From the NCBI GenBank assembly GCA_021371795.1, contig JAJFVK010000016.1, positions 1 through 39,378 on the forward strand: a DNA stretch of 39,378 nt, written 5' to 3'. This DNA is from Planctomycetaceae bacterium (GTDB taxonomy: Bacteria > Planctomycetota > Phycisphaerae > Sedimentisphaerales > UBA12454). Under the pieces are notes generated by a model. It was not told the DNA's origin, searched no databases, and worked only from the letters and a program-made list of their open reading frames with translations. Positions 29,234 to 34,195 of the stretch are shown in pieces. Made by a program: the position numbers and the translations under genes. How positions within the stretch are numbered: position 1 is the first letter of the stretch; every line of letters begins with the position of its first letter.

Positions 29234-32200
29234 TTACCTCAACTGAAAATTTTCTGTTCCCACAAGGTTTTCCATCTGTCTGCAAAAATCCGTTGTTGGA
29301 TTTACTGACAAACTTTTGCCCGCCATTGTTTTCACTTTAACGCCGCTGATTGTTTTGATTGTAATATAAACCGGGCTTCTGCCGCGATGTGCTGCGCAGA
29401 TGTGTTTGAGCGATGCGATTTTTTCTTTCGTTGCCGCGATTTCTTCGATAAGAATACTAACGCTGCGATTTGCCGCGATTTTCGTTGGTGCGTGTTCGAG
29501 GTCAATCAACTCTTCGCAAATAATCTGCGGCGTTTCTCTGGTCAAATCAACTTTGCCGCGTACGAACAGAATCCTATCGACCGTCAGCATACCCCCGAAT
29601 ACCGCAAAGCAATCCGACCACATCACAACCTCGCAGCTTCCCTGCAAATCGGCAAGTGTAAAGACCGCCATTTTCGCCCCGGCGTTTCGTCCGTTGCGTG
29701 TGATAATACTGCGAATCTTCTGCACCATTCCGCCGATAATTGCCGGCTTGCCTGACGAATCGTTTTTTAAATGCGAAGTGTTCATCGTGCTGTAAACGCT
29801 AATCATATCGGCGTGTTCGCTTAGCGGATTTTTCGTAACATAAAGTCCGAGCACTTCTTTTTCGTAAGTCAGCATTTGTGTTTCGGGCCAGGCCGGCACA
29901 TCAGGCAGCTTCAAATGGTCTTTGGCGTAATCTTTTTTCATCTCGGCCGATTCGAACAATCCCATCTGTCCGTTTGCTTTATCGTTTTGCATATTTGCGC
30001 CGGCTTTCATTCCTATTTCAAGACCGGCCATCATTTGCGCTCTGCTTCCGCCCAAATCGTCGAACGCGCCGGCTTTAATCAGCGATTCGATAACCTGTTT
30101 GTTGACTAACCGCAAATCCACATTTTCGCAGAAGTGAAACAGACTGTGAAATTGTCCGATATTTTCACGCGCAGCTATAATCTGCTCGACGGCCTTGTCG
30201 CCGACACCTTTAACCGCCGCAAGACCGAATCTAATCAGTCCGGAGTTTTGTTTTGTCTCATGCTGCTGCTGATAAATCACTGTAAAGTTGATGAAGCTTT
30301 CGTTTATATTCGGCGGGGCAACTTCAATTCCCATTCTCCTGCACTCGCCGATATATTCAGCGACTCTTTCGGCGTCACCTCGTTCATAAGTTAAAAGCGA
30401 GGCCATAAATTCAATCGGCCAATACGCTTTCAGATACGCGGTTTGAAATGCGATAAACGAATATCTTGTAGCGTGACTTTTATTAAAGCCGTAGCCTGCG
30501 AACCGTTCGATAAGCTCGAAAATATCGTCTGCCTGCCGCTGACTCAATCCCTTTTCGCCGCAGCCTTTTAGGAACTGTTCTTTCTGTTTTGAAATTGTAT
30601 CGGCCTGTTTTTTACTGATAGCCTTAATCAGCGTATACGCCTGCCGCAGGGGAATATCGCCCAGCCTATTGCAGATACGCATAACCTGTTCCTGATAGAC
30701 CATAATGCCGAAGGTTTCTTCGAGCACTTCGCGCATAATCTGATGCGGCACTTCCCACTTTGCTCCGTGTTTGCGGTCGATGAAATCACCGATAAGCGCC
30801 ATCGGGCCCGGCCTGTAAAGCGCGTTCGCCGCGATGAGGTCTTCGATTCGGTCGGGCTTGAGCCGCATAAGCAAATCCTGCATACCGCCGGATTCAAACT
30901 GGAATATGCCTTTTGTTTTGCCCGATGCGAAAATCTCAAAAACCTTATGGTCGTTGAGTTCAATTTTTTCGATATCGATTTTTACGCCGTGCGTCGATTC
31001 TACGAGGTCGATTGTATGCTGAATAACAGACAGCGTCCGCAATCCGAGAAAATCCATTTTCAGCAAGCCAATTTTGTCAACCAGCGGCCCTTCATACTGT
31101 GTTACAATATCGCTCGATTTCGGATCGCGATACAATGGCACAAAATTTGTCAGCGGCTCATCAGCGATAACAACGCCGCAGGCGTGCACCGATGCGTGTC
31201 GCGCAAGGCCTTCAAGTTTTTTGCCGATTTCAATTACATTTCTTGCCGCGGGATTATTATCATAAGCGGCTTTTAAATCCGGCTCCTGTACTATCGCTTC
31301 TTCGAGTGTAATATTCAAAGTCGCCGGCACTAACTTCGCCAGCTTGTCCGCTTCGGCCAGCGGCAAATCCAAAACTCTGCCGACGTCTCGAAGAACTCCG
31401 CGAGCTTTCATTGTTCCGAAAGTTATAATCTGCGCGATATGGCCGTATTTGCTGCGGACGTATTCGAGAACCTTCGCGCGTCCGTCCTGGCAGATGTCAA
31501 TATCAATATCAGGCATTTCGTTTCGTTCAGGGTCCATAAACCGCTCGAACAGCAAATCGTATCGAATCGGGTCAACATTGCACAGCCCCAGACAATAACC
31601 GACGACCGTGCCGACGCCGCTTCCTCTTGCGCCGGTCGGAATATTATTTTCAGCAGCGAATCTGCAAAAGTCCCAAACGATTAGAAAGTAACTGGAAAAT
31701 CCCTTGCTCTCGATGACTTTTAATTCGTGGTCGAGCCTTTGTTTTATTTCAGGCGTAATTTCGCCGTAGCGTTTTTTCGCGCCTTCGTAGCAGAGTTTAA
31801 TGAGGAATTTCTCCGGCTTGCTTCCATCAGCCGGCTTGAAACTTGGTGCGTGTCTTGTCTTTGTATCGATTTCGACATTGCATCGTTCTGCGACGAGTAC
31901 CGTATTATCGCACGCTTCGGGAACATCAGCGAACATCTCGCGCATTTCCTGATTAGTCTTTACATAAACATCTTTCGGATAATGCAGTCTGCCTTCTTCG
32001 TTGACTTTCTTGCCGGTACTGATGCAGGTAAGCGCATCGTGCGCTTCATAGTCTTCGGCGTTGAGAAAATGGCAATCGTTCGTCGCAAGCAGCGGCAGCC
32101 CCATCTTTTTTGCCAAATCGATAATCGCGCCCCGCACATGCGGCACGTCGGTCGGCTCGTGTTCCTGAACCTCCATAAAGAATCGATTGTCGCCGAAGAT

Positions 32201-32701
32201 TTTTAGATATTCTTCAACAACGCGTTTCGCTGCGTCCATATCCTGCCGTGCGAGCATTACATTGATTTCGCCTTTAAGACATGCAGATGCGCAAATTAAT
32301 CCTTCGTTGTATTCAGCCAGAACTTCCTTATCGATGCGGGGCCGATAGTAAAAGCCTTCGGTGTAGCCGATACTCGAAAGTTTGAGCAGATTTTTGTAGC
32401 CGGTATTGTTTTCAGCCAGCAATACAAGATGATAAGCCGCGTCGGAGATAGACGATTTATTTTTGTTATGTCTGCTGTCAGGTGCGATATATGCTTCGAT
32501 ACCGATGATTGGTTTTACATGCGCAGCTTTTGCCGAGAGGTAAAAATCGACAGCACCGAACATATTTCCGTGGTCTGTGATGGCAACCGCTGTTTGTCCG
32601 TCCGCCAGACACCTGGCAAAGAGTTTTTTTGGTATAATCGCTCCATCCAACAGCGAATACTGTGTGTGTAAATGTAAATGACTAAATCCTTTATCCGCCA
32701 T
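29234..32701 (-). CDS. dnaE: DNA polymerase III subunit alpha
   Basis: This 1155-residue replicative polymerase of the DnaE1 type opens with a PHP domain whose metal ligands look intact: HLHLHTQYSLLDG, ITDHGN, GIEAY, HLVLL, CLKGE and NDCHF. The palm aspartates are in PDIDIDICQ and KMDFLGL. The fingers, a helix-hairpin-helix region (GLAAVKGVGDKA) and a C-terminal OB fold (AVFTLADLQGSCEVVMW) follow in usual order. An intact PHP site suggests manganese/zinc-dependent proofreading, which E. coli DnaE has lost. The start has AGGAATT upstream. It is followed by a small membrane protein in the same transcript. Confidence 0.96.
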   Translation of the reverse strand: MADKGFSHLHLHTQYSLLDGAIIPKKLFARCLADGQTAVAITDHGNMFGAVDFYLSAKAAHVKPIIGIEAYIAPDSRHNKNKSSISDAAYHLVLLAENNTGYKNLLKLSSIGYTEGFYYRPRIDKEVLAEYNEGLICASACLKGEINVMLARQDMDAAKRVVEEYLKIFGDNRFFMEVQEHEPTDVPHVRGAIIDLAKKMGLPLLATNDCHFLNAEDYEAHDALTCISTGKKVNEEGRLHYPKDVYVKTNQEMREMFADVPEACDNTVLVAERCNVEIDTKTRHAPSFKPADGSKPEKFLIKLCYEGAKKRYGEITPEIKQRLDHELKVIESKGFSSYFLIVWDFCRFAAENNIPTGARGSGVGTVVGYCLGLCNVDPIRYDLLFERFMDPERNEMPDIDIDICQDGRAKVLEYVRSKYGHIAQIITFGTMKARGVLRDVGRVLDLPLAEADKLAKLVPATLNITLEEAIVQEPDLKAAYDNNPAARNVIEIGKKLEGLARHASVHACGVVIADEPLTNFVPLYRDPKSSDIVTQYEGPLVDKIGLLKMDFLGLRTLSVIQHTIDLVESTHGVKIDIEKIELNDHKVFEIFASGKTKGIFQFESGGMQDLLMRLKPDRIEDLIAANALYRPGPMALIGDFIDRKHGAKWEVPHQIMREVLEETFGIMVYQEQVMRICNRLGDIPLRQAYTLIKAISKKQADTISKQKEQFLKGCGEKGLSQRQADDIFELIERFAGYGFNKSHATRYSFIAFQTAYLKAYWPIEFMASLLTYERGDAERVAEYIGECRRMGIEVAPPNINESFINFTVIYQQQHETKQNSGLIRFGLAAVKGVGDKAVEQIIAARENIGQFHSLFHFCENVDLRLVNKQVIESLIKAGAFDDLGGSRAQMMAGLEIGMKAGANMQNDKANGQMGLFESAEMKKDYAKDHLKLPDVPAWPETQMLTYEKEVLGLYVTKNPLSEHADMISVYSTMNTSHLKNDSSGKPAIIGGMVQKIRSIITRNGRNAGAKMAVFTLADLQGSCEVVMWSDCFAVFGGMLTVDRILFVRGKVDLTRETPQIICEELIDLEHAPTKIAANRSVSILIEEIAATKEKIASLKHICAAHRGRSPVYITIKTISGVKVKTMAGKSLSVNPTTDFCRQMENLVGTENFQLR

Positions 32702-33168
32702 ATTTTATAATTCCTGTGCGACTTCCAGACAGACCAAAATTTTTATTTTGGGCGGGAATCCGCATTAAATTTCTGATAACCGGAAGTATTGATACACATT
32801 TCTTATACCAACGGGCTTAAATAACTGCGTTCGTAATTCGCGGCTTAGCGAAGCCGGCGTAATGACTTACCAATCGTTCGACGCGCAATTAAAAAATACC
32901 TGTGGTATTGCTTCCTTAACCTTTTGTATTCTGTCTTGGCTATTATAAGACCAGACCGTGAATTTTCAATTTTCAATATTAAATTTTAAATTTAAATATG
33001 TGTCGCCATCTGGATTTCCGTGTTGTTTTTTGTAAACATTTTTTTAAGTTCGATATTTCAAACACCTTAGAGCCGATAAAAAATGCGATTTCAGTAGTGT
33101 TTTTGGATAGTACGTTGTCTTTTTTCAACACACTGATAAAGTTTAGCATTATAGTTAATCTGCATAAA
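32702..33168. other. Long gene-free region upstream of dnaE
   Basis: No convincing gene. It holds a 7-bp hairpin CCAAAAT / ATTTTGG (32734-32751), another CGGCTT-AGCG-AAGCCG (32841-32856), and an AT-rich block of the repeat family (AATTTTCAATTTTCAATATT then AAATTTTAAATTTAAATATG) at about 32961-33000. An open frame at 32998-33321 has no ribosome binding site and low-complexity composition, so it is not called. Confidence 0.5.
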
Positions 33169-33204: not shown

Positions 33205-33435
33205 GTTTGTGAATATGGGGACTATGTTTGTTGTGAACTCAAAACGCCTGGCACGAGCTTTGCTCTCAGTAACGGTTATGTTGCATGGTGGGCGACTGCT
33301 TCGGTTTTCCCAGGAGGATGAAGAAGTGGAAGTGCCCGCCTGTGTACGCAATCAGAGCTAAACCTATAAACTTTGAGCTCTGTCTAAATATGCGTTGGTT
33401 CTGGAGCTGGCCAGGAGGAGGCAGCTCCTTTTTTT
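33205..33435 (+). ncRNA. Probable structured RNA or long regulatory leader, unidentified
   Basis: About 230 bases have no plausible frame but nested complementary segments. CTCAAA (33238-33243) pairs with TTTGAG (33372-33377), TTGC (33281-33284) with GCAA (33348-33351), and GGTGGGC (33287-33293) with GCCCGCC (33334-33340). A local hairpin GAGC-TTT-GCTC lies at 33255-33265. Together they make one rod about 140 bases long, ending in an intrinsic terminator. The base composition is richer in GC than the flanks. It could be a free-standing small RNA (6S-like rods have this outline) or a leader with attenuator controlling the lipoprotein gene that begins 53 bases after the T tract. I tested it by eye against tmRNA, SRP, RNase P and common riboswitch motifs and did not recognise it. 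Confidence 0.5.
33403..33435 (+). terminator. Strong intrinsic terminator
   Basis: GGAGCTG (33403-33409) pairs perfectly with CAGCTCC (33422-33428) and is followed by seven T. It lies between the structured RNA and the lipoprotein gene. Confidence 0.88.
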
Positions 33436-33487
33436 ATGCGCAGTTTTTTAGAAGCCTCCCAGTATTACTCACTTAAAGGTCAGAATT

Positions 33488-34195
33488 ATGGCAGATCTCA
33501 ATAGATGTTCAGTGAAATACTTTATATTAATGCTGATATTCATGCCGTTTTGGTCTGGATGTGTCAGGTCAACGATGTTGGATGCAAATGCTAAGAAGCT
33601 TGACCTGACAAAGAGATCCATCGCCCTGATGAGAGTTAAAGTGTCCAATGAATACAAGCCGGAATATCAGCCGTTCCTGCGCACGGCAATGTTGATGACA
33701 AAAGGCGGATATGCTGACTTTAAAATTAAATCTTCAGCTTTGCTGGTTAAAGAAGAAAAAAAATACAATGAATATTTGGTGACTGTGGATGTGCCTCCAG
33801 GAAAGTATTTGATGGAAAGCATGGTAGGGGAGGTGATGACGCTTGTTCCTCCGATAGATGCTACCAGTGTTATGATTCCTTGCGTGCCTTTTGAGCTGAA
33901 ACCCAATGAGATAGTATATCTGGGCAAAATTGAAGGCAGAATACATAAAAGATTAAATGACAAAGAATTGCGGGCAGGAATTGTTATTCCTTTGGTTGAC
34001 CAGATGGTAGCGGGGTTTTCGACTGGTACCTATGATATTTCTGTTTTTGATAATTACTCGGCTGACATTCCGCTTTTTATTCAAAAATACCCAATACTGA
34101 AAAATTATACGATTAAGAAGGCTGTACCGCATACTTATAAGCAGCCGAAAACTGTGGCGGATATCAAAAATTTTAAAAAGCTGTACTTTAAGTAA
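33488..34195 (+). CDS. Hypothetical lipoprotein
   Basis: This 235-residue protein has a lipoprotein signal: charged start, hydrophobic YFILMLIFMPF, then WSGC with the lipid-carrying cysteine near residue 25. The mature part is mostly beta (KYNEYLVTVDVPPGKYLMES, FELKPNEIVYLGKIEG), suggesting a carboxypeptidase-regulatory-like or Ig-like fold. PPGKY and YLGKIEG resemble lipoproteins of the DUF2846 type, but this is loose. No function is proposed. ATG at 33488 has only a weak AAAGG site. Its transcription may depend on read-through of the terminator at 33403-33435. Confidence 0.72.
   Translation: MADLNRCSVKYFILMLIFMPFWSGCVRSTMLDANAKKLDLTKRSIALMRVKVSNEYKPEYQPFLRTAMLMTKGGYADFKIKSSALLVKEEKKYNEYLVTVDVPPGKYLMESMVGEVMTLVPPIDATSVMIPCVPFELKPNEIVYLGKIEGRIHKRLNDKELRAGIVIPLVDQMVAGFSTGTYDISVFDNYSADIPLFIQKYPILKNYTIKKAVPHTYKQPKTVADIKNFKKLYFK

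Follow-up and report, generated by a model that had tools for sequence, protein, structure and literature searches.

CsrA is widespread, and most of what is known of its RNA antagonists comes from gammaproteobacteria. There, CsrB/CsrC and RsmX/Y/Z (under BarA–UvrY and GacS–GacA) are stand-alone small RNAs (sRNAs) with GGA in their hairpin loops, are controlled by two-component systems through distant upstream palindromes and occur in genomes that encode CsrA. The site that CsrA recognizes is GGA in hairpin loops (PMC7652899). In Pseudomonas, CbrAB–CrcZ couples an NtrC-type two-component activator and sigma-54 to the production of an sRNA sponge (PMC8871633), and LuxO–Qrr and GlrR–GlmY/GlmZ likewise combine an NtrC-type regulator with a sigma-54-dependent sRNA. 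The locus described here, found in a 39,378-nucleotide stretch of DNA that we analysed as a whole (the window), resembles the Csr/Rsm RNAs in the features listed, with two-component control as a predicted one, and CbrAB–CrcZ is its closest analogue in wiring. It is a predicted stand-alone, single-copy sRNA gene, conserved across a large part of Sedimentisphaerales (Planctomycetota, Phycisphaerae), that a candidate dedicated sigma-54 sensor–regulator pair probably switches on.

The sRNA gene, its structure and its conservation

The gene lies between dnaE (29234-32701, minus strand) and a lipoprotein open reading frame (ORF) that starts at 33488, in an intergenic gap that re-inspection of the sequence found as the initial annotation had described it. 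Promoter geometry suggests a transcript of ~161 nt at ~33275-33435 on the plus strand; conservation places the start at ~33275, downstream of the position near 33205 first proposed. Covariance model R1 matches 33269-33435 with 142 bits, a score to which the window's own sequence contributes as part of the model. The idea of an independent RNA of no known class has held up, given its family-wide conservation, its own promoter and terminator, and Rfam searches at gathering and lax settings that returned nothing at the locus beyond chance level, even at E<=10, and no match to a known CsrB/RsmY-type family. 6S RNA (RF00013), which is of similar size and also stand-alone and intergenic, gave no covariance match here; the genome's own 6S RNA is elsewhere (G000:C6:58223-58407, above the Rfam cut-off). 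Short ORFs overlap the block, but the family alignment contains indels with lengths not divisible by three and shows no apparent common frame, so a protein-coding reading was rejected. The window also contains an Acido-Lenti-1 RNA (RF01687; 19933-19977, plus strand) above the Rfam cut-off, in a planctomycete genome. Positions 1-600 hold the end of a 16S gene followed ~100 bases on by a strong terminator, which suggests that 16S is unlinked to 23S.

All structural elements are on the plus strand. Hairpin 1 pairs GGTGGGC (33287-33293) with GCCCGCC (33334-33340), has a corresponding helix in family f7 and encloses AGGAGGA at 33312-33318 (context CCCAGGAGGATG). This helix is the part of an originally proposed long rod that survives. 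CTCAAA (33238-33243), assigned to the same rod, falls outside the transcript because it is upstream of the sigma-54 promoter at 33249-33264, and the TTGC/GCAA pairing (33281-33284/33348-33351) does not hold in some relatives, L003 and L008 among them. In the model, ACGCAA is instead the 5' arm of a conserved second helix, with TGCGT as the 3' arm: hairpin 2 (33346-33395) joins ACGCAA (33346-33351) to TGCGT (33391-33395), with an inner pairing of CAGAGC (33353-33358) and GCTCTG (33377-33382). The intrinsic terminator (33403-33435) is as first described, with a perfect 7-bp stem (GGAGCTG 33403-33409/CAGCTCC 33422-33428) and seven T (33429-33435), and its loop carries AGGAGGA (33413-33419). The TGCGC that directly follows the U-tract (33437-33441) is also found at other terminators and is probably a general terminator feature here; (A/G)TGCGC often occupies this position at intrinsic terminators in the order, unrelated ones included (window positions 591 and 33429; L133, L137, L141-L144, L146 and L150). 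In predicted folding energy, 33205-33435 does not stand out from its dinucleotide shuffles (z -0.77), so the evidence for an RNA lies in conservation, covariation and the promoter.

Among 98 relatives searched at the DNA level, clear homologues came only from the window's family, f1, within which the covariance model also detects the RNA. Three blocks are conserved in 12 oriented f1 loci: the sigma-54 box, a hairpin that has GGAGGA at almost every locus, and the terminator, in which the string GGAGGAGGCAG is invariant. For f1, whose alignment was fitted to the model, the share of pairs that form is 93%, against 41-50% when the alignment is slid, and covariation within f1 alone is modest. The f7 alignment was not fitted to the structure; there, 93% of pairs form (33-55% when slid), GGAGGA is retained and the pairs of the terminator stem co-vary around GGAGGAG. 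The compensatory changes for which an alignment of relatives had been suggested are present in f7, where 13 of 23 pairs are changed on both sides, a level that none of 500 shuffles reached. Weak covariance-model matches extend to other families of the order, and several of these independently show sigma-54 boxes and GGAGGA terminators; two that have neither box nor GGAGGA (L044 and L051) look like chance and were set aside, as was a simple GGAGGAG-terminator pattern across the class, which is partly noise outside the order. Most genomes are drafts, and absences are therefore weak evidence. Even without a role for CsrA, the locus defines a predicted conserved sRNA family in the order, with a likely activator.

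Promoter, paired palindromes and a kinase–regulator operon

The predicted sigma-54 (-24/-12) promoter TGGCACGAGCTTTGCT, of textbook form, lies at 33249-33264 on the plus strand. Its box, TGG(C/T)A(C/T)-N5-TTGCT, is present in all 12 f1 homologues in the oriented alignment, and the window's genome encodes RpoN, so that both hallmarks of a sigma-54-dependent gene are found together. Sites of this consensus number 15 in the same genome, compared with 0 and 2 in two control orientations, and several of them lie 5' of likely flagellar genes, an ammonium transporter gene and the gene for a DnaK homologue (names beside the 15 sites come from reading the protein sequences by eye and general knowledge, with no database search). 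In Pirellula, csrA itself has been reported to be sigma-54-dependent (PMC12316311).

Upstream of the box are two enhancer-like palindromes, each with one mismatch to TGTTG-N8-CAACA: UAS1 (TGTTGTTTTTTGTAAACA, 33021-33038), whose counterpart is at ~-228 from the box in the family loci examined, and UAS2 (CGTTGTCTTTTTTCAACA, 33113-33130), at ~-136, giving a spacing of ~92 bp. A secondary palindrome (TGATAAAGTTTAGCA, 33134-33148) is kept in most of f1 and is perfect, as GTGATAAAGTTTATCAC, in L008 and L009. Between UAS1 and UAS2 (33039-33112), family f1 has an extra conserved block, CTTAG..CC.ATAAAA. The same arrangement of two palindromes, with the same distances and spacing, recurs in the tested loci of f1, f6 and f7, and the f2 locus L085 has palindromes at -127 and -221. 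Across 397 genomes of the class, paired palindromes followed by a sigma-54 box occur in 48, of which 46 belong to Sedimentisphaerales, and the reversed-pattern control gave zero matches in the same genomes. By inspection, the two matches outside the order (G280 and G336) have no sRNA features, and the match in G015 is uncertain as an sRNA locus; the in-order members counted have a terminator within ~70-210 nt of the promoter. The palindrome and the paired-site pattern were spotted in the data and afterwards tried on additional genomes from the order, and the f1, f6 and f7 loci that suggested them are not independent of the pattern; independent support comes from the reversed-pattern control and the kinase-operon result below. 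One genome has this sigma-54 promoter with its paired sites twice; the second copy, L104 (G372:C1:637791-638034), has a degenerate 5' hairpin after it and then, apparently, a protein gene.

A palindrome search within the family revealed a second recurrent TGTTG-N8-CAACA site, just 5' of the -35 box of a kinase–regulator operon, in nine f1 genomes including that of the window. In the latter, the operator is at G000:C2:55459-55476, the sensor kinase gene at ~G000:C2:54329-55411 and the NtrC-type regulator gene at ~G000:C2:52764-54179, both on the minus strand. Pfam domains are HisKA and HATPase_c in the kinase, in which no obvious transmembrane segment was seen by eye, and Response_reg, Sigma54_activat and HTH_8 in the regulator; the nearest NCBIfam names for the pair, AtoS and AtoC, fall far below cut-off, so the pair is left without a name. 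Of 23 genomes from f1 and f4-f7, 17 have a palindrome no more than 150 nt 5' of the kinase ORF (some ORFs were mis-picked); other loci have ~0.18 such sites per kb, a figure that includes true sites. Regulator orthologues (59-73% identical; paralogues at most 49%) were found in 23 of 30 genomes, a hand-chosen and mostly RNA-bearing set that offers support and is not an unbiased test. In G014, G019, G021 and G033, neither the orthologue nor the RNA was detected; G016 and G020 encode the regulator but gave no match to the RNA pattern, and three RNA-bearing genomes (G030, G057 and G013) are without a close orthologue. Because the palindrome of the sRNA promoter is also present at the operon promoter, this kinase–regulator pair is the likely regulator of the sRNA.

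GGAGGA motifs and alternative readings

The RNAs contain 2.8 GGAGGA motifs each, compared with 0.12 in shuffles. GGAGGA was counted 5' of the terminator in 9/9 f1 and 22/23 f7 transcripts and at the terminator loop in the same proportions, where the f7 exception, L097, was mis-called by the script and has a visible GGAGGA terminator; the comparison with control terminators comprised 8 controls, too few to be informative. In structure predictions, the terminator GGAGGA has an unpaired probability of 0.79-0.91, and the GGA of hairpin 1 takes part in some pairing. Family f6 has shorter RNAs with a weaker motif than f1 and f7: GGAGGA is kept at the terminator loop in 5 of 14, and three have no GGA there. 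As with CsrB/RsmY-type RNAs, therefore, GGA motifs occur in hairpin loops above chance in f1 and f7, less so in f6, and the genome encodes a canonical CsrA with the RNA-binding residues L4 and R44. The exposed, duplicated GGAGGA, the canonical CsrA and the two-component control together point to CsrA titration. We hold binding of CsrA by the sRNA to be somewhat more probable than not, with only moderate confidence because the motif is weaker in f6 and co-occurrence is uninformative: CsrA is present in 89 of 98 genomes of the order, with the RNA or without it, and is thus no discriminator. Two RNA-bearing genomes, G008 and G013, gave no CsrA match (drafts 89% and 84% complete).

Conserved, exposed GGAGGA loops could instead serve as purine-rich seeds of a base-pairing sRNA directed at UCCUCC-containing mRNAs or C-rich sRNAs, with sigma-54 regulation unchanged. 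Qrr and GlmY/GlmZ are established sigma-54-dependent sRNAs of this kind and provide precedents, and the partial replacement of GGAGGA by AGGGUGAUG in f6 would suit a changing partner. Against this, the same short motif occurs twice per RNA in separate hairpins, as is typical of a protein-binding decoy, and we consider base pairing unlikely, though worth keeping in view. Still less probable is a role as a Shine–Dalgarno mimic, in which the RNA would pair with the 3' end of 16S (CACCUCCUUU). GGAGG is complementary to CCUCC of the 16S tail in the window, and AGGGUGAU in f6 lengthens the match, but a mimic should keep GGAGGU, and of 131 GGAGG cases 97 are followed by A and only 3 by U; we regard this as very improbable. 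In the short f6 versions (L117-L128), the terminator is preceded by a conserved stretch that resembles AGGGUGAUG and is partly complementary to the 16S 3' end.

The decoy could also be meant for another RNA-binding protein, such as Hfq or an unknown one. CrcZ carries A-rich repeats, and the conserved motif here is GGA in loops, not repeats of that type, which makes this reading improbable even though CrcZ, the closest analogue in wiring, sequesters Hfq/Crc in Pseudomonas (PMC8871633). Finally, the position of the sRNA 5' of the lipoprotein ORF had raised the prospect of a riboswitch-type attenuator of that gene, and of 20 larger neighbourhoods from across the order, 15 have a gene 3' of the sRNA that looks ThiE-like on inspection of its sequence. 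Neighbouring genes differ between the family homologues, however; neither dnaE nor the lipoprotein gene is a conserved neighbour among the family loci compared, the lipoprotein gene is absent beside the RNA at the other 11, and the ThiE-like gene, by inspection, has its own TATAAT near the start codon, beyond the sRNA terminator. An attenuator of either gene has a negligible chance of being correct. In two f6 genomes (L142 and L150), flagellin-like genes lie just 5' of the sRNA; flagellin is under CsrA control in other bacteria.

The proposed circuit and known systems

Our preferred reading, CsrA titration, assembles parts that can be read from the genomes: the gene, its conserved structure and promoter, the paired sites, the common operator and the genes for CsrA and RpoN. 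The phosphorelay, regulator occupancy, transcription and CsrA binding with its effect are the steps that we infer. The HisKA kinase would phosphorylate its operon partner, the NtrC-type regulator (REC, sigma-54-activation AAA+ and Fis-type HTH), which would bind the two TGTTG-N8-CAACA palindromes ~92 bp apart and activate RpoN–RNA polymerase from a distance at TGGCAC-N5-TTGCT. The resulting ~161-nt RNA, ending at its own terminator, would present GGAGGA in its first hairpin and terminator loop, and these motifs would occupy the two RNA-binding faces of the CsrA dimer, titrating CsrA and de-repressing its targets. We assign this whole circuit, from kinase through NtrC-type regulator and sigma-54-dependent sRNA to CsrA titration, a probability of about 0.58.

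In the literature searched, we found no report of a CsrA RNA antagonist in planctomycetes (description elsewhere is possible), no described sRNA in Sedimentisphaerales and no description of this circuit layout for Planctomycetota. We see about an even chance that the locus represents an independently wired Csr cascade in this phylum, with a dedicated kinase and NtrC-type regulator, paired enhancers, sigma-54 and a CsrA-sponge RNA shared by a large part of the order; it would be, to our knowledge, the first CsrA-antagonist sRNA proposed there. If true, this would suggest that the kinase–regulator–sRNA–CsrA circuit arose more than once from different transcription parts, and it names a specific, testable set of regulator, operator, RNA and target protein.

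Set against known systems, the planctomycete RNA has no relation in Rfam to CsrB/CsrC or RsmX/Y/Z, belongs to a different phylum, is a putative CsrA ligand only, has two main GGAGGA sites and probably uses sigma-54 with an NtrC-type activator. CrcZ sequesters Hfq/Crc and adjoins cbrAB, whereas the planctomycete RNA is unlinked to its candidate regulator operon, has paired palindromes as its sites and carries GGA in its loops. The RNAs of LuxO–Qrr and GlrR–GlmY/GlmZ base-pair or act as a RapZ decoy, and show no sequence relation to it in Rfam. We infer that the planctomycete circuit is wired like GacSA–RsmYZ, but through sigma-54 and an NtrC-type regulator.
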